From a virus, in the IMG/VR virus record IMGVR_UViG_3300044492_000297, positions 1-37,360 of that record: a DNA stretch of 37,360 nucleotides; one strand, given 5' to 3'. The notes beneath the pieces were generated by a model that did not search any database, had not been told where the DNA came from, and worked only from the letters and a program-made list of their open reading frames with translations. The position numbers and the translations under genes were made by a program. Below are positions 10,785 through 31,541 of this stretch, in pieces. The number at the start of each line of letters is the position of its first letter. The stretch's first letter is position 1.

Positions 10785-11981
10785 TTACCCGACGCTGATC
10801 GTGATCGTCAAAAACATCTCGAGTGGGATGGCAGGAAACGCGGCATATGCAGGACGATACAGATCAATCGTGGTGCCGCCAGGGGGCGCATAACAAAACC
10901 CCGGCTCTAACACCACCGCCGTCCCGGCTCCACCATTCGGAGTAAACGACCCCACACTCATGCGATACGTCTGAAATCCTCCAGGTATCTTGACGCTCAA
11001 GACCGTTGGAGCACCAGACACCGAACTATTGGCTATGGGGATATACATAAGCACCGTCATCGTATTCCCGACCAACGTATACGCGAAGTAGCTAAAGCCG
11101 GTCACTGCCCACGCACCAGCGTTCGCTGTGAAATCTCCAGCGTTAAAAGGCACATCAATCCACGCGCCCATCGGCGTTGTGCGGCCTCGCTCGGAAACGG
11201 CCCCACGCGCTCCGATGCCACCGGACCGGTCAAAGATCACTTGCGTCACGTGGCCGGATTCGCCGTCGTCCTGCGTATAGAACCGCAGCTGCTGCACCTG
11301 ATTCATGATGCGCCAGACCCGCAAGTTCACGGGATCGGCCATGTTCATCAGGTAGAGGCTCGGATTGCTCACGGTGTTGACATGAATCTCGTTGGCGAAC
11401 GTCGTGCTCCCGGCCACGGTCAGGTCTCCACGCAGCGTCGTCAAGCCCACGACAGACAAGCTGGGTACCTCCAGCAGGCCGTCTCGCCCGAACCTGAGCC
11501 GCGCTACATAGCCGCTATCGGAGTCGAGGACGTGAGACACGTAGAAGTCGCCAAAGCCCTCTAGTCGCGTAGCTCGGGCATCAACCGGCACACTCGGCTC
11601 AGTATTCTTCAGCAGGATGTACGACACGTTCGATCCCACAATTTGCTGAGGACCGTTCGTGAAGATATTCGCCGCGTCCTTCAGCGGGACGTTGGTGCTC
11701 AGCCGTGCATCCACTACCGTGCCGGTCGTCAGCACCTCACCTGCAAGAGCCGTAATGGCGTCCGATCCGCCCGGTTCGTGCATCGCGTGGTGCGGCGTCG
11801 TCGGGTCTCCCGGCGGGCCCTGCACACCTCGCGGACCTTCCGGACCGAGTGGCCCGATGTCGCCTTTGGGGCCGATCGGACCCTCTAGCCCGACAGGACC
11901 AGCCGGGCCGGTGCTAACCGGGTTCCAGATCGGCACCCACTCCGTGGTCGCCGGGTCAGGAGGGATGTAGGGGTCAGCCAT
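10785..11981 (-). CDS. Collagen-like tail fibre protein
   Basis: A 398-residue fibre. After a 24-residue start ([15 protein letters not shown]) it has Gly-X-Y triplets at residues 25-59, then [20 protein letters not shown]. Next comes [18 protein letters not shown] and a beta-rich shaft with the word [17 protein letters not shown]. The C-terminal region (about 260-398) is beta-rich, with [18 protein letters not shown] and TMTVLMYIP segments, plausibly a receptor-binding or trimerisation head. Part of the shaft is shared with the larger fibre at 12375-14324. Collagen triplets are common in trimeric phage fibres. Confidence 0.8.
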
Positions 11982-12374: not shown

Positions 12375-14324
12375 TCAATTCTTTTGACAGAGGAAAATGT
12401 CGATGTAGGGCGGCAGGTGCGCCACATCCTCTGACCGCCCCACCAGCCCCAACCCGCGATCCGATCCAGCAGTGGCCCCACTCACGGCTGGTGAGTCGCC
12501 GGAGATACTGCCCGACCCCGACCCGGACCCGCTGAACGAGTGGGTATGACTACTCACGGGCTCGGTGTCTCCGGCCACGTTCCCGCTGAACGAATGGCCG
12601 TGAGGAGACGACGACATCACCCCGCTGCCGCCTGCATCCGCATTCATGCCTCCGGCATTATTCGGACCGGTGGTCCCGGAGAAGCCAATGTCCAGATGGT
12701 GGCCGTGCCCACCCCCTCCGTCCGTCGTTCCACTGATGCTCACGCTGACCTGCCCGGTCTGCCCGCCGTGCATGTGATTATCGGCCCTCAGCGTTCCCGC
12801 CTGATGCAGATGGTCTGGTGCGGCATACGTGCCCGGTCCATGAGCATGGCTCCAGGTCCCACCGGTTCCTCCTGCCGTCGCGCCGACGGTCACGCGAAGG
12901 AAGTAGTTGTCCCAATTCACACGCGTCCAGCCAGCCGGACACGGCGTCACACTGATCACGATGAGGCCAGAGGGGAACGGGCTGGCCCACGTCGAATCCC
13001 CACGGAGGAACGTGCTGGAATTCGCGGTCCCGTTGCCGAGTCTCGCCGGGTTCGCCACTCCCGTGGCGAGAGCCGCAGCGTTCAGGTTGGTCAGCCGTGA
13101 CCCATCTCCAGAGAATGCCGCATAGACGATGCCGTCTCGTCCGAAGGCGAATTGCGATTGAACGGTCTGATAGTCATCCGTCAGGGCTTCCAGGTACAGA
13201 AGGCCCGAGTTGTAGTTGACGAACCGCCACCGTTTGAGATTGACGCCTGCCCCATCATCGACAAAGTTCAAGACCGAGTTATTGCCCTGAATGGTCATGC
13301 CCGATCCGATGCTTTGAGCCGTGAAGAAGTTGTTGATGTTCTTCAGGGCGACGTTCGCCGTCAGGCGGGCATCGGGAAGCGTGCCCGTCGTGTCCGTCAA
13401 GGGAATGGCCGCCACGGTGCTCGGCTCGCCGCCCGTACTCTTCACGTAGCCGTTCGCCAGGGTATTCAGGGCGCGCTCATTCGTCAGTTGCGAGTGCGTG
13501 GACACGGTCCAGTAGGTCGCATCGTTGGCCACCGTCCCGGCCGGTCCTGGCGGCCCCTGCGGTCCAGGCGGTCCCTCTGGGCCCTCGTCTCCAGTCGGCC
13601 CAGGAGGGCCTTCTGGACCGGGCGGGCCAGGAGGACCAACCGCACTCGCGATGCCGACCCCGGGCCACGGCTCGGGTGGCGTCGTCGTGCCGTCCACCAC
13701 GCACATATAGGCAATGCCATCGGCGGCGATGACGATGTCACCGTCGTAGTAGGTCTTGGGATCGACATAGTTGCCGAGATACTCGAGGTCCATGCCTCCG
13801 GCACTCGGGCCGCCGATGATGACGATCTCTCCCGGGGTCGAGATGTCCAGGGCGATGTTGGCCCCGGCCACGAGCTTCCGGCTGTTGACCAGCGTCGGCT
13901 CATCGGTCTGCACCAGAAAACTCTCGGTCAGCGACGGTGCCGGCCCCTCCGGCCCCTGTGGCCCCTGCGCTCCTGGCTGCCCCTGTGGCCCGGGTGGACC
14001 TTGCACCTTGCCGGCATCAATCCACGCCTGTATGTCCTCCTCCCAGACCCAGAGGTGCCCCGTATCCCCCACGATGTAGGCATCGCCATCGGCGTTACCG
14101 GCCGGGGGCAGACTCCCAACATTCGGGACGGTGCCCTTGATCGTGACGCCCGTGCCGGTTGCACCCGTCGGCCCTTGCGGACCTTCCACCCCCTGCGGCC
14201 CTTGCGGGCCTTCCACCCCCTGCACGCCACGCGGCCCCGGCGGCCCTTCCGGACCGGCCGGTCCCGTCGCAGACACGGGCACCCATTGCCCGGCAACGTT
14301 CACTTTCAGGACGCCATCGGCCAC
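12375..14324 (-). CDS. Collagen-like tail fibre with tail-collar-type histidine-rich tip
   Basis: The start is GTG at 14324 (649 residues). Gly-X-Y segments occur at about 21-57, 109-130 and 230-263, separated by globular parts. [18 protein letters not shown] (about 315-335) begins a shaft shared with the smaller fibre. Residue 455 onwards has the signature [27 protein letters not shown] of a phage tail-collar domain. Next comes a Gly/His-rich tip with HAH, HLH, HMH, GHGHH, HGH and HTH motifs, then a Ser/Gly stretch and the common ending [13 protein letters not shown]. By analogy with T4 short tail fibre, the histidine pairs may chelate metal along the trimer axis. Probable receptor-binding fibre. 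Confidence 0.85.
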
Positions 14325-18338: not shown

Positions 18339-21300
18339 CTAGACCCCGGCCAGCGCGAGCGCGCGCGGAATGTACTTGATCTGATTGCGCGCGATTTCCT
18401 TCCCGTCCAAGGTCGAAATCACGGTGATCTGGATCGGCGCGCCGCCGCCCGCGTGCACCGCTTCGCCCTCTGGCGTCACGCGCTCTCGGCCGTGGAGCGT
18501 CACCGGCGTCCCGCTGCCCCAATCCACGTACTGGCCGTGCGTCCCGCCCTGGAGCCCGATCTCCGGCGGCGGCGCCGGCGTCGGCGTCCGATAGTTGTAG
18601 GGCTTGGACGGATCGTCCGACCGGTAGTCATACTCCACCGGAATCGTAACCGGGTGCTTCGCGAACTCATCCTGGACGCCCTGCGCCCCCTTCTGCGCGG
18701 CCGCCGGCAAGCCGTCCGCCAGGAGATTCCGGATCTCCTTCAGCACATCCACCACCGCCGTCAACGCTTTGTCCTCGATGTCCTTGAACGCGACCGCGTT
18801 TAAATCCTGCACCTTCTCGCCGTTCTCATCGACGAGCAGGCCCATGGCGATCAGTTGGTCCATGTAGGGCTTGAGGGTGTCCGGCAGCGCGACGCCGTTC
18901 TTTTTCGCCTCTTGGTACAGCGTGGAGAGCTCATCGCTCATCCCCTGGAGCACGCCGGGCATGTCCGCGCCCACGTCCGCGAACGCCTGGAGATCACGCG
19001 CGTAGCCGAGCGCAATGTCGCCGAGCTTGGCGGATTGGAATTGGGTGCCCAGGTTCGAGAGATCGATGCCGAGATTCTGGGCCCGCTGCTGCAACGACTG
19101 CCAGCTGGGGTCCTTCGTCATGTCGGTGAGCGCCTGCTTCATGTCCGCGGAGAGCCCGCTGGATTTGAGGAGCGCGTCGATCATGGGCTGCAGCGCTTTG
19201 GGCGCCACGCCGCCAAACGTCTGGAGCGCGCCGGAGAGTTTCCCGACGTTCGCGGTGAGTTGCTGCTGCTTCGCCGCCGCCTGATCGAACGCCCGGCCGA
19301 TGTCCCCGATCACCTGCTGCGCGCCTTGTTCGTCTTTCTTGCCCACGCCCGTGAGGCGCTTCCACATCTGTTCGCCTTCGGCGCCGAGCGTGGCGAGTTT
19401 GTCGTGGAGCGTGTCAAACCCGCCCTGGGAGTCCGCGAAGGCCACGGCCGCATCGCGGCCTTTGTGGCTGAAGGCTTTATCGATCATCCCGCCCACCGCG
19501 GCGCCAATGATCGGGCCCACGATCGGGATCGCGTTCCCCGCGAGCCCGCCGATCGCTTTGCCCAGGCCGCCGCCGATCGCTTTACTGAGGATCGGGCCCA
19601 CCGCTTTGCCCGCCTGCGCGCCCACCGTCGATCCCACCGTGGCGCCGATCGATTGCGCCACGTTCCCGCCGCCCTGGAACGCGCGCTGGATCGATTGCGG
19701 CACCTGGGCCACCAGATCGGCACCGAGGGTGGCGCCAAACGAGGCCGTATCCACCAGCGGTTTAAGTTTCACGGCGGGCAGCTTGCCCAGGGTTTTGGCC
19801 AGCGCCTTTTGATCTCCGGCCTGCGTGAACACCTGCCCGAGTTTGTCCGCCTCTTTATCGAGCGCCGCGGCCTCCTGCCAATTCGCGCGCAGCGCGGGCG
19901 TGAGATCCTGCGACACGCCCAGGAACGCTTTCATGGCATCTTTGGCGGATTGCGTGGAGGCGTGGAGCAGCAGATATTGATAATGAATATCCGCGAGCGC
20001 CGGCGGCACCTGGAACCCCTGGATCAGCCAGTCGTTAATCTGTTTCCCGTACTGGATCAGGCTGTCTTTGGCGAGGCCGCCGGAGGCCGCGGCCGCCTGC
20101 ACCGCGGCGGCCATTTCTTTGATCTTGTCCGTCACGCCGCCCACGCTGATCGCCCGGCCCAGTTTCGCCACGGCCTCCGCGTGATCCTCCGCCGCCTTCT
20201 GCGCCTTCTTCTGTTCCTTCGTGAGTTCCGCGGTGGCGCCCGTGTGCGTGCCCGTGGCGGCGGCGGCCCTGCCGGTGGCCGCGGCGGCGGCCGTGGTGGT
20301 GGTGGCCGCGGCCGCCGTGGTGCCGTTCAGCGTGTTGTACGCGGCGGCCGCCTCCGTCGCGTTCTGTTTCAGGCGCGCGATCTCCGCGTTCAATTTGATC
20401 GAGGCGTCCAGGATGTCTTTGGGCGCGGTGAGCGGTTCCAGCCGCGCGTCTGTTTTCCCGCCAAACCCGATCCGCACGGGCTTCACGGCCTTGCCCTGGA
20501 GCACCTGCTGCTGGCGCGCCTCCGCGGCCTTCACCGCCGCCTCCGCGGCGTCCAGTTTCGTTTTCGCCTGGGCGATCGCTTCCCGGAGGAGATCCTGCCG
20601 CGCCTTCAGCTGCTCCCGCAGCGCCGCGGTGAGCGTGTCCGATCCCTGCTGCTGCTGTTTGAAGGCGTCCACGGTGAGGCCGCTCGATTCCGCGAGCAGC
20701 CGCGTGGCGGTGTCGAGATCCTTCGTTTCCTTCGCGGTCAGGTTTTGTTTGTGGGCCAGCGCGTCATAGGTTTTGAGCGCCTCATCCAGCGCCTGCGTTT
20801 GATCGCGGTACCGCGCCGTGTTCGTGCGGATCTCCCGTTCGGCGGCCGTCTCCGCGGTCGCCACCAAATAGATCGCGCCCGCGAGCAGGCCGAGGGCGGC
20901 GACGACCGCGACGATCGGATTGGCCGCGAGGAAGGTCATCGTGGCCCCGAAGGCCTCGGCCGCAATCCCGCCCGTCTTGAAGGCGCCCACCAGCGTGCCC
21001 AGGCCCGTGCTCATCGCGCCGAACGCGATCAGCGCCGGGCCCACCGCCGCGGCCAGCGCCGCGAAGGCCACGATGCTGACCTGCAGGCCGGCCGGCAAGT
21101 CGGTAAACGCTTTCACGAGACTCTCGAGGATCGGGACGGCCCCATCGAGCGCGTTCACCAGGGTCTTGACCACGGGCAGCAGCGCCTGGCCGATCGAGAT
21201 CCCCACGTCCTTGATCCGATTCCAGAGGATCGTCAATTGCGCGGCCGTCGTCTCGTACCGCTTCTGCGTCTCGTTCTGGAGCGCGTTGTTGGCCTGCCAG

Positions 21301-22295
21301 GCGGCATTCGCATTGGTGAGATCGGTGCGGAGGAGATCGCCGGCGCCCGCGAGGCGCAGCATCGTGTCCTTGAGAATGATGTTCTTCCCGATCAGCGGTT
21401 CGAGCGTGGCGCTGAGATTGCCGCCCGCGCCCTGGAGCTTCTGCAGGCCTTCGACGAAACTCGTGACGGCGCCCGCCGCGTCGGTCTCGAACGCGCGCTG
21501 GAATTCGGCGGCACTGACGCCGGCCACTTTCGCGAACCCGGTGAGCGCCTTCCCGCCCTTGTCGACGGCGTCGTTCATCTTCAGCAGCACGCGGCTCATC
21601 GCGCTGCCACCCGCTTCCGCGTTGATCCCGACACTGGCCATCGTCGAGGAGAAGGCCAGGACTTGCGCCTCGGTCAGGCCGACGGCATGCCCCGCGCCCG
21701 CGATGCGCGCGGCCATCTCCACGATCTCCTTCTCCGTGGAGGCGCCGGCGTTGCCGAGCGCGACGAGCGTCGACGCGAACCGATCGGTGTCTTGCCCCGC
21801 GGCGCCGAAGATGTTTTGAATCCGCGCGATGGAGTTCGCGGCTTCGTCGGCGGTGAGATTGGTCGCCGTCCCGAGGCCCGCCATCACCTCCACAAATTGC
21901 TTGAGCTGCTCTTTCGGAATCCCGAGGGCCCCGGCGCTCTCGCCGAGCGCGTTCAGGGCGTTCACATCGACGGGGATCGTCTTGGCGAGATCGCGGAATT
22001 GCTGGGAGAGCTGGGCGAACTCGGCTTCGCTCGCGTTCACCGTCTTGCGGACGCCGGCAAAAGAGGCTTCAAAGTCGATCGCGAGTTTCGCGGTGGCGGC
22101 CCCCAACGCCGCGAGGGGGGCCGTGATGCCGACCGTCAGGGTGCGGCCGACCTTCTCCGCTTCGGCCCCGACCTTCTTCAGATCGCGCGACCAGGCCGCG
22201 GCCGAATCCGAGGCGCGCCGCATCGCTTTGTCGAATTCAGCGGTGTCCGCGACGAGCAGCGCGCGCAGCAGTCCGACGACGGCACTATTGGCCAC
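18339..22295 (-). CDS. TP901-family tape measure protein
   Basis: The start is taken as GTG at 22295 because GGAGGGAA lies six bases upstream; the longer frame to 22334 overlaps the chaperone gene. This gives 1318 residues. About residues 65-270 are the TP901 core (FEASFAGVRKTVNASEAEF, LAGLGTATNLTADEAA, ALGNAGASTEKEI, AGHAVGLTEAQVLAF). Two long hydrophobic helices occur near 400-440 (VSIVAFAALAAAVGPALIAFG) and 455-480 (IVAVVAALGLLAGAIYLVAT), with a third Gly-rich one near 920-960 (KAIGGLAGNAIPIVGPIIGA). An Ala/Thr linker lies near 640-680. It sets tail length and probably helps DNA entry. No lytic domain is visible. Confidence 0.9.
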   Translation of the reverse strand: MANSAVVGLLRALLVADTAEFDKAMRRASDSAAAWSRDLKKVGAEAEKVGRTLTVGITAPLAALGAATAKLAIDFEASFAGVRKTVNASEAEFAQLSQQFRDLAKTIPVDVNALNALGESAGALGIPKEQLKQFVEVMAGLGTATNLTADEAANSIARIQNIFGAAGQDTDRFASTLVALGNAGASTEKEIVEMAARIAGAGHAVGLTEAQVLAFSSTMASVGINAEAGGSAMSRVLLKMNDAVDKGGKALTGFAKVAGVSAAEFQRAFETDAAGAVTSFVEGLQKLQGAGGNLSATLEPLIGKNIILKDTMLRLAGAGDLLRTDLTNANAAWQANNALQNETQKRYETTAAQLTILWNRIKDVGISIGQALLPVVKTLVNALDGAVPILESLVKAFTDLPAGLQVSIVAFAALAAAVGPALIAFGAMSTGLGTLVGAFKTGGIAAEAFGATMTFLAANPIVAVVAALGLLAGAIYLVATAETAAEREIRTNTARYRDQTQALDEALKTYDALAHKQNLTAKETKDLDTATRLLAESSGLTVDAFKQQQQGSDTLTAALREQLKARQDLLREAIAQAKTKLDAAEAAVKAAEARQQQVLQGKAVKPVRIGFGGKTDARLEPLTAPKDILDASIKLNAEIARLKQNATEAAAAYNTLNGTTAAAATTTTAAAAATGRAAAATGTHTGATAELTKEQKKAQKAAEDHAEAVAKLGRAISVGGVTDKIKEMAAAVQAAAASGGLAKDSLIQYGKQINDWLIQGFQVPPALADIHYQYLLLHASTQSAKDAMKAFLGVSQDLTPALRANWQEAAALDKEADKLGQVFTQAGDQKALAKTLGKLPAVKLKPLVDTASFGATLGADLVAQVPQSIQRAFQGGGNVAQSIGATVGSTVGAQAGKAVGPILSKAIGGGLGKAIGGLAGNAIPIVGPIIGAAVGGMIDKAFSHKGRDAAVAFADSQGGFDTLHDKLATLGAEGEQMWKRLTGVGKKDEQGAQQVIGDIGRAFDQAAAKQQQLTANVGKLSGALQTFGGVAPKALQPMIDALLKSSGLSADMKQALTDMTKDPSWQSLQQRAQNLGIDLSNLGTQFQSAKLGDIALGYARDLQAFADVGADMPGVLQGMSDELSTLYQEAKKNGVALPDTLKPYMDQLIAMGLLVDENGEKVQDLNAVAFKDIEDKALTAVVDVLKEIRNLLADGLPAAAQKGAQGVQDEFAKHPVTIPVEYDYRSDDPSKPYNYRTPTPAPPPEIGLQGGTHGQYVDWGSGTPVTLHGRERVTPEGEAVHAGGGAPIQITVISTLDGKEIARNQIKYIPRALALAGV

Positions 22296-23036
22296 GGTTC
22301 CCTCCGTCTCCCCGCGGCCGTAGCGGGATCCCATACTGCGCGCTGAGCACGGACAAGGCCCCTCGCATTTTCGCCACCTTCCCCGCGGCCGTCTCGGGTC
22401 CCGGCTCGGCGGTGACCAGATACGGCTGGAGCGGCGGCACGCGCTTCTTGTTCATCGCCGTCGCCCAGATGGAGACCGCCAGGTGCGCCAGGCGCGCGTC
22501 CCGGTTGGCTTGATTCCGGCGCCGCGCATTCTCCGCCGCGAATTCGCGATAGAGCTCCCGCGGCGTCAGCGCCCAGAACAGATCCGGACTCAGGCCAATT
22601 TCTCGCGCCTGGAGGTAGAGCGCGTGCCAGTCGTAGAAATCGTGCCCGCCGCCAGCGGGGACGGCGTCCGCGCGTGCGCGTTCGTTTTTTTTAACGCCCC
22701 CTGATCCCGCGCGTCCGGCGTCGTGGCCGTCATCATCTCGGTGATGAGCGCGACCACTTGCGGGATCGCCTGGAGCCCGCCCAGCCGGTCGATGATCGTG
22801 TCGGCGCCCGCCTGGGTGACCTCCGGGTGATGGCGCTGGAGCGCGCCCCAGACCATCACGCTGAGGTATTCGATATCCCCATTTGTCGCGCCTTGCACGA
22901 CCTCCCAGAGCGTCACGCGGTGCGCCGGCGTGCTGACCGCCGCCTGAATCGCCCGGAGGCCCCCCATCCCGAGCGCCAGGCGATAGCGCGTCTCGCCGAC
23001 GTCGAGATCCACTTCGCCGCGTTCGGGATTCGCCAT
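22285..23036 (-). CDS. Tail assembly chaperone, long G-T form made by -1 frameshift
   Basis: Ribosomes that slip -1 at the A-AAA-AAA heptamer (22692-22686) leave the short frame after its two lysine codons and continue in the second frame to the stop at 22285. This gives about 250 residues. The added domain begins KNERARADAVPAGG and includes HDFYDWHALYLQAREIGLSPDLFWALTPRELYREF, typical of the T-type half of tail chaperones (a W...L..R-G.sp..FW.LTP pattern). It overlaps the tape measure start by 11 bases. It probably escorts the tape measure and recruits tube protein, as G/GT does in lambda-like phages. The frameshift is inferred. Confidence 0.8.
22590..23036 (-). CDS. Tail assembly chaperone, short G form
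   Basis: The ATG at 23036 sits in a TAATG overlap with the tube gene. The product is 148 residues. MANPERGEVDLDVGETRYRLALGMGGLRAIQ and ALQRHHPEVTQAGADTIID are typical of the G-type or GTA-like chaperone. The frame ends at 22590, after about 34 residues beyond the slip site that look random (THARTPSPLAAGTISTT), consistent with the usual short product. Upstream in-frame codons lie inside the tube gene and are not used. Confidence 0.8.
   Translation of the reverse strand: MANPERGEVDLDVGETRYRLALGMGGLRAIQAAVSTPAHRVTLWEVVQGATNGDIEYLSVMVWGALQRHHPEVTQAGADTIIDRLGGLQAIPQVVALITEMMTATTPDARDQGALKKTNAHARTPSPLAAGTISTTGTRSTSRREKLA
22686..22692 (-). promoter_or_regulatory. Programmed -1 ribosomal frameshift heptamer
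   Basis: On the minus strand the chaperone frame reads TTA AAA AAA ACG. The last A of TTA with the two AAA codons form the classical X-XXY-YYZ heptamer A-AAA-AAA, within eight consecutive A. After a one-base slip the reading continues AAC GAA CGC, the open frame of the T domain. This octamer stands out in very GC-rich DNA, which supports selection for its retention. Confidence 0.8.
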
Positions 23037-23530
23037 TACGGCAGATCCGCGGAGAAGTCGCCGAGCGGCGTGATCTCGGCGGTGAAGGGCACCTTGGCAT
23101 CGCCCGAGATTTCCCCCGGCTGGAATTTCGTGACCACGCCACGGAAGGGCCACTCGGTGCCGGGCGATCCGTCCGTGAGCACGATCTTGAAATTGGCTTC
23201 CTTGCGGGTGCGCCAGAGATAAATCAGCCCGCCATCGGTGAAGCCATCGCCGCCGGCGTTCGACTGGGATCCATGCGTCGGCCGCCAGTTGCCCGCCAGC
23301 GCAAACGCGCCGGAGTCGCGCAAGCCGGCGAGCTTCTCGCGGTGCGCCTCGGGGCTCCGCAGATGCGTCTTCTCGATCACGTCGGTGCTCATTTCGCCAG
23401 GCGTGATCGATTCCAGATCCGCGATCGCCGCGAACCCTTCGGGCGACGCGCCGCCCTGCCCCACGAGCAGCTGCACGCCGTAGCCGGTGAACGCTTCACC
23501 GGGATAGTAGGTATCGGTGACATCAGACAT
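23036..23530 (-). CDS. Major tail tube protein
   Basis: A 164-residue protein. An ideal AGAGGAGG site precedes the ATG at 23530. It has a siphovirus tube pattern: PGEAFTGYGVQLLVGQGGASPEGFAAIADLESITPGEMS, then EKTHLRSPEAHREKLAGLRDSG, and a C-terminal strand VPFTAEITPLGDFS. The region with FKIVLTDGSPGTEWPFRGVVTKFQPGEIS is typical of tube beta sheets. It polymerises into the tail around the tape measure protein. It is placed directly upstream of the chaperone pair, as expected, with the stop and the next start sharing bases (TAATG). Confidence 0.85.
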   Translation of the reverse strand: MSDVTDTYYPGEAFTGYGVQLLVGQGGASPEGFAAIADLESITPGEMSTDVIEKTHLRSPEAHREKLAGLRDSGAFALAGNWRPTHGSQSNAGGDGFTDGGLIYLWRTRKEANFKIVLTDGSPGTEWPFRGVVTKFQPGEISGDAKVPFTAEITPLGDFSADLP

Positions 23531-24458: not shown

Positions 24459-24853
24459 GGGCCCACCGCCGGTTCGCTCGGGACTTTCGCGTACGCCTCG
24501 GTCATGAACACGACCGCCTGGCGGCGCCCGATCCGGACGGCCGCGATGATGTCGTAGGTCCGATCGCGGTACAGGAGCCGCCGGAGCTTTGGGATATCGA
24601 GCCGCTCGGGATCGCAATCGGCGCGGTACGCCGTTTCCCACCGGGTGGTGGCGCGCGCGCGCTCCTGATTGGCGCGCGCGACTTCCATCGCATCCACCTC
24701 TTCGCGCGCCATCGCCACGGTCGCCAGATCCGTCCAGGCGCCATCGATCGGGAACCCGGAGGCCGCGGTCGAGTCGTCCGGCCGCGCCTGGATGGTCACC
24801 CACCGATCGCGCGCGCCGCTGCCGACCGGTCCGGCCGCTTGGCGGAATCTCAT
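24455..24853 (-). CDS. Head closure / head-tail joining protein
   Basis: A 132-residue protein resembling the phage head-tail joining family. It starts with an Arg/Gly-rich N-terminus (MRFRQAAGPVGSGARDRWVTIQARP), then WTDLATVAMAREEVDAMEVARANQERARATTRWE, and RLDIPKLRRLLYRDRTYDIIAAVRIGRRQAVVFM. This matches the usual RxxVxiq...w.dv.twA.r...rE......a......iR......v....rl.y.g..Y.I......rr..l pattern of this family. It should form the ring joining connector and tail. It follows the sugar-enzyme gene with an ATGA overlap. Confidence 0.8.
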   Translation of the reverse strand: MRFRQAAGPVGSGARDRWVTIQARPDDSTAASGFPIDGAWTDLATVAMAREEVDAMEVARANQERARATTRWETAYRADCDPERLDIPKLRRLLYRDRTYDIIAAVRIGRRQAVVFMTEAYAKVPSEPAVGP

Positions 24854-25626
24854 CGGTGGGCCGCCTCCGGCGCCCGTGGCGGCCGCGCCACGCTCGGCCA
24901 GGCGCGCGCGTCGCCGTAGTACTCGCGCACCCAGCCGATCCCTTGCGCGGCCCGACTCCAAGGATCGACCACGCCGTGAAAGTTGATGATGCGCGCGCCA
25001 TGCGGGAGCCGCGGCCGCCGCACCTTCTCGAAGTGGCGCCGGTAGGAGAGGACCCCATCGGCCGGCGTAAAGACGGGCTCGCCCTTCCCGAGCACGTGTG
25101 AGATCCAGGCTTGATCGCCGCCGCGGCCGCCCGCGAGGTACGCCTCCTGCGGGGAGGTCGCCGGATCGAAGCGGGTCCACACCTGCGATCGCGTGCCGGG
25201 CGTATGGAGCCAGAGGCTCGCGTTGTAGAACTGCGTCCGCGGCCAATCGGTCTCGTTCCAGATGACGAAGTCCTCCTCGCGATCGAAGAGCGGCGCGAGA
25301 TCGCCGACGATGACCGTATCGAGATCGAGCGAGACGTACCGATCGCCGAGCCACGTGCGCGCCTCTTCGGCGAAGGCGCGGAGCCGGACATAACACGAGG
25401 GCCAATTCCAGCCCTCGGGCGGCGGAATCTCGATGAGCCCGTCGTCCCAAATCGGGATCGTGTCGATCCCGTCGAGCCCGGTCGGATCGTCGGTGACGCA
25501 CACAAACCGATGCGGCGCGGGGTAATGGGCCGCGACCATGCGCTTCAAGGTGTGCACGGTCTCGGGCGCGTACGTCGATCGGTACGCACGCGGCGGGCGC
25601 CACTTCCAACACACGACGGTGATCAC
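24850..25626 (-). CDS. Putative GT-A-type glycosyltransferase
   Basis: The start is GTG at 25626 behind GGAGGTG (258 residues). The N-terminus is an alpha/beta nucleotide-sugar domain: MITVVCWKW at 1-9, HRFVCVTDDPTGLDGIDTIPIW at 39-60, and YVSLDLDTVIVGDLAPLF at 97-114. The DLD (101-103) is the likely metal-binding DxD, and FYNASLWLHTPG and GGRGGDQAWISHV follow. It looks like a GT8/GT-A-type enzyme that transfers a hexose to an acceptor. Its position in the neck module, overlapping structural genes (GTGA with the upstream gene, ATGA with the downstream one), suggests it decorates a virion protein or host glycan. Substrate unknown. Confidence 0.75.
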   Translation of the reverse strand: MITVVCWKWRPPRAYRSTYAPETVHTLKRMVAAHYPAPHRFVCVTDDPTGLDGIDTIPIWDDGLIEIPPPEGWNWPSCYVRLRAFAEEARTWLGDRYVSLDLDTVIVGDLAPLFDREEDFVIWNETDWPRTQFYNASLWLHTPGTRSQVWTRFDPATSPQEAYLAGGRGGDQAWISHVLGKGEPVFTPADGVLSYRRHFEKVRRPRLPHGARIINFHGVVDPWSRAAQGIGWVREYYGDARAWPSVARPPRAPEAAHR

Positions 25627-26327
25627 GCGCCCACCTCCGGCAGGACTGCCTGTTGTTCACAGGCGCGCGAGGCGCGCTCGGACGTCATCTCAGAAGCGAG
25701 CTCGGAATTGAGATCCGCCGTCTCGAAAGCGTCGAGGCGCGTCCGCGGCGTGCAATTGCGGACCGCAATCCCGGCGGCCGCGAGCGCCGGCGCGAGCGTC
25801 TCGTAGGCCCGGCGGAACGCGGCATAGTTCGTCTCAGTCGATTCGGTCAGGCCGACCGGGTGGCGGCCGAAGAAGTGCGACTGCGTGGCCATCGGCCCAC
25901 CCTGATAGCCCAGGAGCAGGATCTTCCGCGCGCCGAGGTGCACGGCGAGATTGATCGCGGCATAGCCCGAGTTCCCGCCGGTCCGGAGCCCGGTCGGATC
26001 GCGCTCCACGCCCTCGATCCCGGTGTGCCTGAGCACCACGATCGGCGCCGCCCAGGGCCCGCCCGGGATCGGATCGGCGGCGCCCAGCTTCGACCCCACC
26101 GAGACACGGAGGCCCGTGTAGCTCGGCACGCCGCGATAGAACCGCCACCAACTGCGATCGGACGAATATAGGACCGGCGCCCAAGGCGCGAGGCGGATCG
26201 CGTCGTTGACCGCGATCACCGGCAGCCCAGAGGCGTGGACGCGCGCGACGTCGTCGTCCGTGAGCGTGGGCCCGCTCGCGAGACAGACGATCGTCGCCCC
26301 CGGCCAGAACTGCAGGAGGCTAGGCAA
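25623..26327 (-). CDS. Rossmann-type sugar-related protein (DUF115/glycosyltransferase-like)
   Basis: TTG at 26327 is chosen because GGAGG sits correctly upstream, giving 234 residues. The pattern ATIVCLASGPTLTDDDVARV (11-30), LPVIAVNDAIRLAPWAPVLYSSDRSWWRFY (35-64), GGNSGYAAINLAVHLGARKILLLGYQGG (117-144), HFFGRHPVGL and a terminal NCTPRTRLDAFE matches proteins I remember beside phage structural genes. They belong to the DUF115/MptE-like or sialyltransferase-like Rossmann group. The family's activity is not settled, so only a nucleotide- or sugar-binding role can be suggested. It overlaps the connector gene by 8 bases and the glycosyltransferase gene by GTGA. Confidence 0.65.
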   Translation of the reverse strand: MPSLLQFWPGATIVCLASGPTLTDDDVARVHASGLPVIAVNDAIRLAPWAPVLYSSDRSWWRFYRGVPSYTGLRVSVGSKLGAADPIPGGPWAAPIVVLRHTGIEGVERDPTGLRTGGNSGYAAINLAVHLGARKILLLGYQGGPMATQSHFFGRHPVGLTESTETNYAAFRRAYETLAPALAAAGIAVRNCTPRTRLDAFETADLNSELASEMTSERASRACEQQAVLPEVGA

Positions 26328-26658
26328 AGCTGGGCCTCCGGAGCGGATGGAGCAGACGGCGCAGGCCGGCGCGCAGATACGCGCTCTGCTCGGGCGTCTC
26401 GGGCTTCTCCTCCGCATCGTCGCCGCGGAAGCGCCAGAGTTCGCCCGTGTACCAGAGAATCGCGCCGAGGACGATCGCGAATTCCGCGTCGGCGGTCGGA
26501 TCGGTGTCCACCGTCCAGTCGTTGTCGAGGCGCCCGATGTGCGAGAGCACGCGCGCCGTCGCGGTGGCGATCTTCTGCTCCACATCGGCCCGCGCGTAGT
26601 CGTCCTCCAGGTTGAGGTGGGCCTTCGCTTGCTCGTAGGTCACGAGAAAGAGCGACAT
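26320..26658 (-). CDS. Head-tail connector (gp6-like adaptor)
   Basis: A 112-residue protein from ATG 26658. It starts MSLFLVTYEQAKAHLNLEDDYARADVEQKIATATARVLSHIGR, the classical start of the phage head-tail connector family (PF05135-like): a VTYEQAKAHLN helix followed by ADVEQKI. A second helix, AEFAIVLGAILWYTGELWRF, follows. It forms the first ring below the portal. It follows the collagen-like gene with only two bases between stop and start. Confidence 0.85.
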   Translation of the reverse strand: MSLFLVTYEQAKAHLNLEDDYARADVEQKIATATARVLSHIGRLDNDWTVDTDPTADAEFAIVLGAILWYTGELWRFRGDDAEEKPETPEQSAYLRAGLRRLLHPLRRPSFA

Positions 26659-26660
26659 GG

Positions 26661-27359
26661 TCAGTACCGCACGCCGGGCACGCCCTGCTCGCCCCGATCG
26701 CCCGCGGGGCCGCGCGTGCCGGGCTCGCCCTTCTTGCCGGGTTCGCCGCGCTGGACCGCGAGCGTCCAGGCCGCGATCCCCTCGAGGGGCCGCTCGGCCG
26801 TCGCCGCGTTGCACACCCAGATCGCGCCCGCATAGGACACCGCATCGCCTGGCTCGAAGGCGGCGCCCTTCTGATAGAAGCCGCGATACATGAGTTCGGC
26901 CGTCTTCCACGATCCGATCGCGGACCAATCCGCGCGGCGGACCGTGATCGTCCGGCCCTCGCGTTCGAACGTGACCGCGTCGAGCGTCCCATCGCGACCC
27001 GGCGCGCCTGGCGCACCCTTCTCGCCCGCCGTGCCGGGGGTGCCGGGCGCGCCCGGCGTTCCCGGCGGACCTGGGGGGCCAGCGGGGCCGGGCTCGCCCG
27101 GCACGCCGCGCTCGCCTGGCGTACCCGCCGCCCCAGGCAGACCGGGCGGACCCGGCGCGCCCGCAGGGCCGGCGGAGCCGGGCTCGCCCGCCCCCCCGCG
27201 CTCGCCGGCTGGTCCGGGCACGCCCGGCAAGCCGTCGCGGCCATCCCGCGGCGCGATCGAGAGCAGCGCTTGCCGCACCGCGCGCTCCACTTCGGAGACC
27301 ACGAGCCGCTCAAGTACCGGAGCGATTTCATCGACCAGTTTTTCCACGGCAGGCGTCAT
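26661..27359 (-). CDS. Collagen-like protein with carbohydrate-binding-type module in head-neck module
   Basis: A 232-residue protein whose ATG (27359) overlaps the portal stop as ATGA. Residues 1-37 are a helical region ([30 protein letters not shown]). Gly-X-Y triplets run from about 40 to 124. A compact module at 145-202 follows ([40 protein letters not shown]), resembling the small aromatic carbohydrate-binding modules on many phage proteins. A last Gly-X-Y stretch is at 205-230. Likely a trimeric capsid- or neck-attached fibre that could help adhesion. The sequence supports the architecture; the location on the virion is inferred. Confidence 0.8.
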
Positions 27360-28807
27360 GGGTGCAGCTCCACCGGCGTGGCGCGGACGAGCCGGGGTGC
27401 GAAGTAGCGAGTCAGTCGTTCGCCCACGCCAGCCATTTGCGAGGCCTCCGGCGCCGGCGTGACATCCTCCGCCGGCGGCGCACTCTCGTCCGGCGGCGGT
27501 GTGGCCGCGGGCGTCCCGAAGGGATCGGCTTTCGCGTCCCGCTTGGCGAGCGCGGCGAGCGAGTAGTTTTGTTGCTGCAGGTACGGCGTCTCGCCGCCGG
27601 AGACGGGCCCGAGGTCGAGGTACCGGAAGCGGGCCTCGTTCGGCGACATCCCGCCGCCCTTGATCGCGTCGGACGAGGCTTTGACCTTCGACGCCGTGTC
27701 CATCCGCATGAGATCGTCGAGATCCATCTCCGTCCCGATCGGGCGGCCCGCCTCGTTCTTCGTCATCTCCAGGCCTTCGTCCATCAGCAGTTCGATGCAC
27801 TCGATCAGGCTCTGGAGACATTGCGAGTAGTAGAGAATCTGGAGCGTCTCGGGATTCGTGTTCGCGGGCAGCGGGCCGATCCCGATCATGTAGGGTGGGA
27901 CGCGAAACGCCGTGCACGCATTCTCGGCGGTCCAGCGCAGCTGCTCGATGAGTTGCGAATCGCTCGCCGAGACCGCCATCTTGTCGTACGTCAAGCCGTC
28001 GCCGAGCACCGCCACGCGGCCCACGTTCTCGCCCGTGAACGCGGCTTCCCACCGCTCCTTCAGTTCGTCCGCGTTCGTCTGATCGATGTGCCCCGGCGCG
28101 GTGAGCACGCCCGACGGGACCGCGTTGTTGGTGAAGAAGCGCGCGGAATTGTTCTGAATCTGGATGCCCTGGAGCGCCGACACGCCGCAGGCATAAATCG
28201 GCGACACGCCCACCAGCGGGTGATAGAGCGGCACCATCACGTCATGGATGATTTCCGATTGCGGAATGACCACGGATTCCGACAGCCGCGAGAGCCGATC
28301 GGGCCCGAGCTTGTAGTAGACCGCGCCATCGGGCGCGACGAGCGGCGTCACACAGGTCGGATCGAGGATATAGAGCGCGCTGACCATCCCGCGCCCGTCG
28401 CGCTGCTTCAGGACGTACGTGTTGCCGTGGATCAGCTTCGAGACGACCCACTGCTCGTAGAACTTGATGCGATTCTGGATGCGGTTCGGCCGCCGGAGCA
28501 CCGGCGAGTGGGCCGTGTTCTCCGTCTCCGTCCAGATCCCGTCCTCGTCCTGCTCGACCAGATAAATCCGGAGCTTGCCGACATCGCTGCCGATCAGGGT
28601 GACGCAGGCGTACACCGCGGCATGCGCCAGGACGGTCTCGGCGCTCGCGGTGACGTTCTGTTGCCAGGCGCCGGGGTGGCTTTCGCGAATGACCGGCCAC
28701 CACCCGCCGCCGCCACGCGTCGGGACAGACGAGATCCCGGCCGGGCCGGCCGCGGTGCTCGCGCGCAGGCCCTTGACGCGCAGACGGAAAGAACGCCACC
28801 ACGCCAT
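27356..28807 (-). CDS. HK97-family portal protein
   Basis: A 483-residue protein from ATG 28807. Family motifs are [25 protein letters not shown] (about 60-85), [23 protein letters not shown] (about 120-142) and [35 protein letters not shown] (about 200-234). PPYMIG and [23 protein letters not shown] lie near 315-350, and the C-terminus is Pro/Glu-rich. It forms the dodecameric channel through which DNA is packaged and ejected and is the connector's docking site. The order and size fit the HK97-type head module. Confidence 0.92.
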
Positions 28808-29119: not shown

Positions 29120-30544
29120 TTACGATCCGCCGGCCCAATCGACGTGGTTCATGAACACGACCGCGCCACTCCGCAACTTCTTCCAGTTGATGAAGCGCTC
29201 CGCCTTGAGGGCGAGCGAGTTCGTCTGCCACATCGAGACGAGCTGGGTTGGCGTGGGCGCGACCGAATCACCGGTGGGCGTATCGCTCATTTCGAGCGAG
29301 GCTTCGCGGCTCGCTTCGATCGCGACCGCGCCATCGTCCGCGAGCCCGATCGCTTTCGCATTGAGCGCGATCACCATGTCGCCGGCGGCCGTGGTGTGCG
29401 CGTACTGCGAGGCGATCGCCGGAATGCCGACGAGGGTGCCGCCCTGGAGCGTCATGCCGGGGAACTCCGGCGTCCCCATCGCATTCGTCATCAAGGACAG
29501 CTGGAGCGCGAGCGCATTCGGCAGCACGAGCACCAAGTCCCCGACGTTTTGATTCGAGACGACGAAGGCCTGGAGGATCGCCGCGAGATCGGCGCGAATC
29601 GAGTCGGGGGTGGTGCCCGCCGTGCTCACGAGCGGGGTGACGCCGTTGGTAATCGAGGCCGGCGACACGTTCGCGACCGCCGCCTTCGCCGGATCGACGA
29701 AATCGATATCGAGCCGCTCGACGAGCGCATCGCGCAGCCCATCGCGGACGAGTTGTTCCGCCGACGGCGACGACGTGCGCGCGAGTTCGTCGGTAATGAC
29801 GGAGATCGCCGCCACTTTCGAGGGCCCGAGCGCCTGGCGATCGTACGAGAACTTGGTGAGCGGCTTCGCCTTGCCCTCGCCCACCCAATAGCCCGCGCCG
29901 CCACTGGTCTGCCCGATGATCCCCACGTTGAACGGGACCGCCTGGAGGCTCGGAATCCCGCCCGTCCCGAATTTCCCGATGATGGTTTGCGGACGGAGCC
30001 AGGCGATGAATTCCTGCGTGAGATTCGTGTAATCGACGAGCGCGCCCGCCCAGTTCGGATCGGTCGTCGTCCCGGCCGGGACCGCCGCGCGTTCCAGGTA
30101 CTGGTGAATCCGGTGATTGTCCGGATACCGCGCCTTGGCGACCGCGAGCGGCGAGATCGAGAACTGATGCTGGAAGGCGACGAGCCGACACATCACCATC
30201 CGCGCAAATTCGATCCCCGGATCGAGATTCTGCCGCAGGAAGATCGGCGTGCGCGGACGCGCGGGATCGGCGCTGCGGGAGTCGGCGGCGGCCTCGCGGC
30301 TCCGCCCATCGGCCGGGACCGCGGCCGCGCGATTGGACGCCTCCAGGGCGCTGAGCCGATCGAGATGCTTCTGCAACTCGTCGACCTTGACCTTGGCCGC
30401 GTCGTATTCGGTCGACTGCGCTTCGTCCAAGGTCACCCCCGCCGCCGCGGCGGTGCCCATGAGATCGCGCATGCGGGCGGCGGACGCCTCGCGCATGCTC
30501 GTGTAGCTCTGGATCTGTTCGAGCGTGGTTAGGGTCGTACTCAT
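29120..30544 (-). CDS. Major capsid protein made from an internal in-frame start
   Basis: The ATG at 30544 begins MSTTLTTLEQIQSYTS and is in frame with the protease fusion. It gives 474 residues: a scaffold-like segment (1-105; coiled coil with AAKVKVDELQKHLDRLSAL) and the HK97 coat domain. The GAGGAG 10 bases upstream is stronger than the site for the GTG of the fusion. Thus most coat protein may come from this site, while a small share carries the protease. The free coat product is inferred. Confidence 0.75.
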   Translation of the reverse strand: MSTTLTTLEQIQSYTSMREASAARMRDLMGTAAAAGVTLDEAQSTEYDAAKVKVDELQKHLDRLSALEASNRAAAVPADGRSREAAADSRSADPARPRTPIFLRQNLDPGIEFARMVMCRLVAFQHQFSISPLAVAKARYPDNHRIHQYLERAAVPAGTTTDPNWAGALVDYTNLTQEFIAWLRPQTIIGKFGTGGIPSLQAVPFNVGIIGQTSGGAGYWVGEGKAKPLTKFSYDRQALGPSKVAAISVITDELARTSSPSAEQLVRDGLRDALVERLDIDFVDPAKAAVANVSPASITNGVTPLVSTAGTTPDSIRADLAAILQAFVVSNQNVGDLVLVLPNALALQLSLMTNAMGTPEFPGMTLQGGTLVGIPAIASQYAHTTAAGDMVIALNAKAIGLADDGAVAIEASREASLEMSDTPTGDSVAPTPTQLVSMWQTNSLALKAERFINWKKLRSGAVVFMNHVDWAGGS

Positions 30545-31039
30545 GGCTGCGGTGCTCCTCTGAAGATCAAACGCCTTGATGGTGTGAATCGACGCCTCGG
30601 CATTCGCCGGAATGGCGACGAGGGACAATTCGAGAATTTCAATCTTGGTGAAGCGGAGCCCGCCGCCCTTCATCATCTGCACGCCGCCCTCGAGCGGACG
30701 GAACCCGATCGAGACACCGCGAATCAAGGGCGGCCGGGACTTGACCGACTGCCAGGCTTCCTCAACCCGATCCCGGAGGGTCCCTGGCTCGGCGATCGCG
30801 GGGATCGAGGCGCGGAAGGCAATCCCGGTCTCGCTCGGCTGGCCCATCGTCGCGGCCCCGACGGGCTTCTTCGCATCGTGGTACAGCAGAAGCGCCAGCG
30901 GATTGGCGAAGGTCGCGCCCATGGGCTCGATGACATCGCCCATGCGATCGGTCGTGGGCGACGTGGCCAGCCCTTCGATCGCACGCTGCTCGCCATCGAG
31001 CGCGCGGACCTCCAACTGGGCGTAGGCGCGGTGGATCAC
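29120..31039 (-). CDS. Prohead protease-major capsid fusion (HK97 fold)
   Basis: The start is GTG at 31039 (639 residues); no better start is available, and the ribosome-binding site is weak. Residues 1-160 are an S78-type prohead protease: EGLATSPTTDRMGDVI (about 22-37), H54 in LYHDAKKPVG, catalytic S110 in IRGVSIGFRP, and ELSLVAIPAN (137-146). A capsid gene starts at residue 166 (M) and includes a coiled scaffold-like N-terminal region, then the HK97 coat fold (TIIGKFGTGGIPSLQAVPFNV, VGEGKAKPLTKFSYDRQALG, and the C-terminal QTNSLALKAERFINWKKL). The protease digests the scaffold segment during maturation. Confidence 0.85.
   Translation of the reverse strand: MIHRAYAQLEVRALDGEQRAIEGLATSPTTDRMGDVIEPMGATFANPLALLLYHDAKKPVGAATMGQPSETGIAFRASIPAIAEPGTLRDRVEEAWQSVKSRPPLIRGVSIGFRPLEGGVQMMKGGGLRFTKIEILELSLVAIPANAEASIHTIKAFDLQRSTAAMSTTLTTLEQIQSYTSMREASAARMRDLMGTAAAAGVTLDEAQSTEYDAAKVKVDELQKHLDRLSALEASNRAAAVPADGRSREAAADSRSADPARPRTPIFLRQNLDPGIEFARMVMCRLVAFQHQFSISPLAVAKARYPDNHRIHQYLERAAVPAGTTTDPNWAGALVDYTNLTQEFIAWLRPQTIIGKFGTGGIPSLQAVPFNVGIIGQTSGGAGYWVGEGKAKPLTKFSYDRQALGPSKVAAISVITDELARTSSPSAEQLVRDGLRDALVERLDIDFVDPAKAAVANVSPASITNGVTPLVSTAGTTPDSIRADLAAILQAFVVSNQNVGDLVLVLPNALALQLSLMTNAMGTPEFPGMTLQGGTLVGIPAIASQYAHTTAAGDMVIALNAKAIGLADDGAVAIEASREASLEMSDTPTGDSVAPTPTQLVSMWQTNSLALKAERFINWKKLRSGAVVFMNHVDWAGGS
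30555..30560 (-). promoter_or_regulatory. Internal Shine-Dalgarno for free capsid protein
   Basis: GAGGAG on the minus strand, 10 bases before ATG 30544, lies inside the protease-capsid reading frame. It is a good match to the ribosomal anti-SD and marks a second start in the same frame. Confidence 0.7.
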
Positions 31040-31092
31040 CGCCCACGAAAATACGGCCGACGGCGGCGCGCGCGAATTTCTGGAACCGAAAA

Positions 31093-31314
31093 TTAGGTGG
31101 ATCGCTCGAACATCACGCGCGCGATCGTCTGGCGGCCGCGGCCCGCGCACGCCGAACACGCGACGGTCGCCACAGTACTGGTCGGATCGCTCCCAACGAC
31201 CGTCCGGCTCGCCGAGTACTCGAAGGCGCGCGCGCGATTGAGGCCCGTCCCGGCGCAGGCCGGACAGGGCATCGTGGGCGCCGGCTTCCCCGCGTCGAAT
31301 TTCGATCGGCGCAT
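31093..31314 (-). CDS. Small DnaJ-type zinc-finger protein (two CxxCxGxG)
   Basis: A 73-residue protein from ATG 31314 with GGAGG just upstream. It contains two exact CxxCxGxG motifs, CPACAGTG near 16-23 and CSACAGRG near 52-59, which is half the DnaJ zinc-finger set. Between them is a short polar stretch. Such modules bind unfolded protein or act in redox; no J-domain is present here. The first residues are basic (RRSKFDAGK). Its start overlaps the stop of the preceding gene (ATGA). Confidence 0.65.
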   Translation of the reverse strand: MRRSKFDAGKPAPTMPCPACAGTGLNRARAFEYSASRTVVGSDPTSTVATVACSACAGRGRQTIARVMFERST

Positions 31315-31541
31315 CACCGCCTCCCTTCCGGGGGGCGCTGGGCCACTGCGCCAGGCCGCGGGACCGATCGGCGCGCGGCGATCTTGCGGCGGGCGTCGGC
31401 GAGCTCGTCGCCGTGTTTGGCCGCGGCCACGCCGAGGGCTTCATCGTGGCCGCGGAACTTCACGGCGATGCCGGTCGGCTTCCAGGCCGGATCGGGCGCG
31501 TCATCGACCCCGAGCACATGCAGAATCCAGCGCAGTAGCAT
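31314..31541 (-). CDS. Small hypothetical protein
   Basis: A 75-residue protein (MLLRWILHVLGVDDAPDPAWKPTGIAVKFRG...) with an AGAGGAGG site before its ATG at 31541. The first 12 residues are hydrophobic and could anchor in a membrane, but the stretch is too short to be certain. The rest is helical and basic (ADARRKIAARRS). No family is recognised. It overlaps the zinc-finger gene by ATGA. Confidence 0.5.
   Translation of the reverse strand: MLLRWILHVLGVDDAPDPAWKPTGIAVKFRGHDEALGVAAAKHGDELADARRKIAARRSVPRPGAVAQRPPEGRR

Follow-up and report, generated by a model that had tools for sequence, protein, structure and literature searches.

The window analyzed here covers all 37,360 bases of a linear IMG/VR virus record and has ∼67% G+C. 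On its minus strand the order is tail tube gene, G, T and tape measure gene, so that the G/T pair is flanked as in lambda-type G/GT loci (Table 1). The ATG of G overlaps the stop codon of the tail tube gene (TAATG), and the tape measure gene, whose reading frame was checked, overlaps the end of T and has a GTG start preceded by GGAGGG. A search of the window for tRNA genes found none, and no close DNA relatives were found among isolate phages.

Table 1. Features of the putative tail chaperone locus (window coordinates).
Feature	Position	Strand	Basis or remark
Major tail tube protein gene	23036..23530	-	PF16461 E=1.3e-9; phrog_158 E=1.1e-13
Gene G, putative tail assembly chaperone, zero-frame product, 148 aa	22590..23036	-	ORF; families; AF2 model
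A8 run	22685..22692	-	predicted slippery heptamer A AAA AAA = 22692-22686
T part, -1 frame, Phage_TAC_6 domain	22285..22686	-	after the predicted slip, entry at AAC (22686)
Tape measure protein gene	18339..22295	-	PF10145 E=1.3e-23; phrog_13339 E=1.1e-100

Elsewhere in the window, a prohead protease (PF04586) and a major capsid protein (PF05065) are encoded in a single 774-aa reading frame (29120-31444, minus strand). Collagen-like Gly-X-Y repeats occur in three minus-strand reading frames (26661-27446, 12375-14324 and 10785-11981); one of them lies directly downstream of the portal gene, within the head-tail module, and the third scored below the Pfam cut-off. The head-tail module also holds two minus-strand genes of non-structural appearance, at 25623-26330, with a weak MptE-like match under the cut-off (E 0.005), and at 24850-25626, without a Pfam match. 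A run of 93 C at positions 2-94, at the contig start, followed by GCGCGCGCGCCCCCCC, is most likely an assembly artefact of the contig end.

The G frame reads TTA AAA AAA ACG at 22694-22683 across an unbroken A8 run, and the codons and coordinates that we recovered are those given in the initial annotation. The stop codon of G ends 95 nt beyond the run, and the frame terminating at 22285 is the -1 frame relative to G. A -1 slip on A AAA AAA would continue as AAC GAA CGC, with the junction ...GALKK/NERARAD... and a predicted fusion of 250 aa. The run had been called striking for such GC-rich DNA. It is the sole A or T run of at least six in the 37-kb window; however, the A7-pattern count of the window was equalled, anywhere, in 5 of 100 dinucleotide shuffles. 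The presence of A8 alone is only mildly unusual, and the unusual part is its phase together with its place. Lysine is mostly encoded by AAG in the genes scored (133 AAG vs. 56 AAA), and among the 11 Lys-Lys codon pairs in 12 genes AAA AAA is found solely at the slip site.

T had also been described as enterable only by a -1 slip. In the window, however, this frame stays open upstream as far as 23142, and the tail tube gene contains a GTG (23142) and an ATG (23100) in it. From 23100 to 22455 (mid-T) it has no ATG, GTG or TTG. Two relatives, L064 and L005, have the T frame closed off 40 and 88 nt, respectively, ahead of the slip codons. Entry into T by slippage therefore still holds. Across the tabulated pairs, 31 of 34 lack a usable T-frame start codon in the part of G that precedes the T domain.

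T was assigned to PF09550 (Phage_TAC_6) above the cut-off (E 5.6e-6, 27.1 bits vs. 23.4), and 12 of 15 aligned T relatives matched the same family. The window G alone matched PF11836 (Phage_TAC_11) under the cut-off (E=0.037); PF11836 was matched by 17 of 25 aligned G relatives (best 1e-9), and PF12363 (Phage_TAC_12) by three. Membership of the G half in PF11836 is thus supported through its relatives. The HMM searches that the initial annotation had proposed for both halves agree with its view that they resemble the G and T parts of siphovirus tail chaperones. The AF2 model of G (mean pLDDT 87) resembled predicted phage proteins, including several labelled tail assembly chaperone, with TM-scores of up to 0.70 and weak E-values. 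Nothing credible was returned from the PDB by sequence (G and T) or by fold (G). The fold search of T against BFVD was weak (best E 8e-3, an uncharacterised protein), and the T part had no match at E 0.01 among 50,697 phage records.

Relatives were collected by querying viral contigs with two proteins, T and the tail tube protein. The closest group, termed A-type, contains seven distinct sequences, the window included, each with an in-phase A AAA AAA (TTA, CTA or GTA AAA AAA ACG; ATA AAA AAA GCG, an A7; GAA AAA AAA CGG). The in-phase heptamer is the sole feature common to all A-type junctions. The A7 form is that of lineage L005-L007, and the eighth A lies upstream of the heptamer in L004 and downstream in the other A8 sequences, with the phase of the heptamer unchanged. 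Across the A-type relatives, 18-59% of the comparable fourfold sites in G carry a different base from the window. A T start of its own combined with loss of the heptamer, a pattern that would speak against slippage, was looked for in this close group and was not seen. On sequence grounds, the window adds a well-supported A AAA AAA site of an uncultured phage lineage to a known kind.

All 39 pairs examined (34 tabulated loci, the window included, and five further records, some of them near-duplicates) have T in the -1 frame relative to G. Both distant Bacillota MAG loci from a genome-contig search are -1. An apparent zero shift in L009 was traced to its contig, IMGVR_UViG_3300045051_000199 (L009 and L066), where the frame is broken once more within T, probably by a sequencing indel. 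The letters at the junction vary: A AAA AAG in Paracoccus phage Shpa, G GGA AAG in Pben1, Psul1 and L049, A AAA AAC in L082, T TTT TTC in Lactococcus phage TP712, and C CCC CCG in Caulobacter phage Kronos. L081 has G GGG GAA, which is reported to be common (PMC10885494). G GGC CCT and A AAC CCT are further heptamers at the junctions of distant relatives, and the archaeal-virus record vir515 has no clear heptamer there. Such variety speaks for a common mechanism of ribosomal slippage and against one that depends on a homopolymer. Among isolates, the annotations of Rivra, Shpa, Pben1, Kronos, Psul1 and TP712 (L083, L084, L050, L085, L086 and L088) treat T as a gene of its own. In these genomes the T frame extends into G, in the -1 frame, over slip-like sequence, and a G-T fusion was probably missed in their annotation.

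A sister class of loci, whose G is 24-39% identical to the window G, lacks the poly-A site and carries nnC CCT, read in the zero frame, at the G/T junction. The motif is invariant in 21 of 21 loci (L008, L010, L011, L013, L014, L016-L018, L022-L026, L028, L030-L032, L065, L066, L073 and L080), and occurs elsewhere in the same genes at 3 of 4738 codon pairs; its presence at every junction is far above chance, although the loci share descent. The codon that precedes CCT varies (AAC, GGC, CGC, GAC or ACC), and A AAC CCT or G GGC CCT is found in 11 loci, with no X XXY YYZ heptamer at the site in the remaining 10. The T frame of L011 does not open before the nnC CCT site. Agrobacterium phage Rivra carries CGC CCC at the position of this motif. 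A tree of T places the A-type and C-type sequences nearest to the window in a single set of 14 with strong support, and groups the A-type inside it with weak support; their placement together indicates that the signal changed within this set, possibly accompanied by exchange of the G module. We give about even odds to the reading that nnC CCT would be a minimal signal in the sister lineages, with a single proline tRNA re-pairing from CCU to CCC, and that the frameshift signal has been exchanged within the chaperone family. Conservation of the amino acids encoded in the overlap (Pro-Ser in T) could account for part of the nnC CCT sequence. A literature search for AAACCCT or GGGCCCT in phage frameshifting returned only GGGCCCU in Trichomonas vaginalis viruses (PMC8953718). 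The C CCT class, whose slip is a prediction and which lies outside window coordinates 22590-23036, is the main added value of the comparison.

A search for downstream RNA structure, which the initial annotation had proposed as a check, found no pseudoknot-free fold beyond shuffles: z was -0.1 to +1.7 for the window and -1.6 to +1.0 across six relatives. Covariation downstream in the alignment was next to none (term 0.06). One hairpin in the window, GUCCCCGCUGGCGGCGGGCAC, has a tidy appearance but does not outperform shuffles, and the corresponding region of relatives contains indels. In six of the seven A-type sequences, an AGGG or GAGG stretch starts ∼10 nt upstream of the run, with a spacing of ∼6 nt; the conserved Gln/Arg-Gly also explains these codons. 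In E. coli dnaX a Shine-Dalgarno-like element lies ∼10 nt from the slip site, farther than the AGGG-like stretch of the window.

From the anatomy, the protein families, the frame relation, the conserved heptamer and the lack of a T start, all of which can be read directly, we infer the slip, its rate and a chaperone role in the window phage. The locus would be a lambda-type G/GT tail assembly chaperone pair expressed by ribosomal -1 frameshifting on A AAA AAA, a reading to which we assign a probability of ∼0.9. The majority of ribosomes would translate G alone. In a minority, the two lysine tRNAs on AAA AAA would slip back by one base with perfect re-pairing, and translation would continue as AAC GAA CGC into the G-T fusion. 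A_AAA_AAA is described as a frameshift site in PMC3711429, where another gene showed slippage of 10% with an A7 site and 40% with an A9 site, and two tail chaperone genes gave 6-7%. By analogy with lambda, G would bind the tape measure protein, the T part would recruit the tail tube protein, and neither would remain in the virion. Several points count against this reading: the lack of downstream RNA structure beyond shuffles and of covariation, the closeness of the AGGG-like stretch to the run, and the 95 nt from the run to the end of G, when compared with averages of 26-36 nt for tail chaperones (PMC10885494).

The same frame change could arise during transcription. One extra A copied from A8 would place G and T in one frame, and runs of more than seven A, as in the window, have been implicated in programmed transcriptional realignment (PMC3711429). 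RNA polymerase slippage could thus contribute to the fusion, but it is improbable as its main source: lineage L005-L007 has A7 only, so that the homopolymer is not kept throughout the family, and members with G GGA AAG, A AAC CCT or G GGC CCT have no junction homopolymer at all. Polymerase slippage would also not need a fixed A AAA AAA phase, yet the phase is kept while the eighth A moves, as in L004. An incidental A8, with T translated separately by re-initiation or from a non-standard start, would fit the separate T genes annotated in the isolate relatives and the CTG and ATT codons found in the window T frame at 22599-22569. The CTG and ATT codons nearest to the junction fall, however, within the conserved T domain, which a start there would cut, and the stretch free of ATG, GTG and TTG in the window, like the 31 of 34 pairs without a start inside G, also argues against separate translation. 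Nor would separate initiation need the constant -1 relation, and we consider this explanation very unlikely.

The frame break could finally be a sequencing or assembly error, with nine A and a single G-T gene in the real phage; such errors are common in homopolymers, and the record is a contig assembled from a metagenome. Contigs from independent metagenomes nevertheless share the frame relation with A8 or A7, as do relatives without a homopolymer, isolates among them, which leaves this the least credible of the explanations, with next to no weight. Ribosomal frameshifting on A AAA AAA is the reading that we retain. The -1 relation of this gene pair is fixed and its slippery letters take at least eight forms, so that the pair offers a natural test set for the minimal bacterial slip site, and the comparison across relatives is worth more than the single instance in the window.

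The frameshift pattern was already recognized in the initial annotation as known for this gene pair, and the lambda G/GT tail assembly chaperones are described accordingly (PMC5009743): G attaches to the tape measure and T to the tube protein, and the ratio matters. The window resembles lambda in gene order, in the -1 relation, in a short G with a longer GT and in a slip near the end of G (PMC5009743). In contrast, lambda slips at G GGA AAG and the window would slip at A AAA AAA, the window proteins fall in Pfam TAC_11 and TAC_6, and 95 nt of zero frame are left after the slip. The TAC_11/TAC_6 pairs of alphaproteobacterial phages (Paracoccus phages Shpa, Pben1 and Psul1, Agrobacterium phage Rivra and Caulobacter phage Kronos) are related to the window pair, lie at the same place and have T in the -1 frame, although their identity to it is low, their junctions read A AAA AAG, G GGA AAG, C CCC CCG or CGC CCC, and T is annotated separately. 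When compared with dnaX and the A_AAA_AAA and A_AAA_AAG clusters (PMC3711429), the window has no downstream stem-loop above shuffles, and its Shine-Dalgarno-like stretch is weak and closer to the site. It shares with them the slippery type, on tandem lysine codons.
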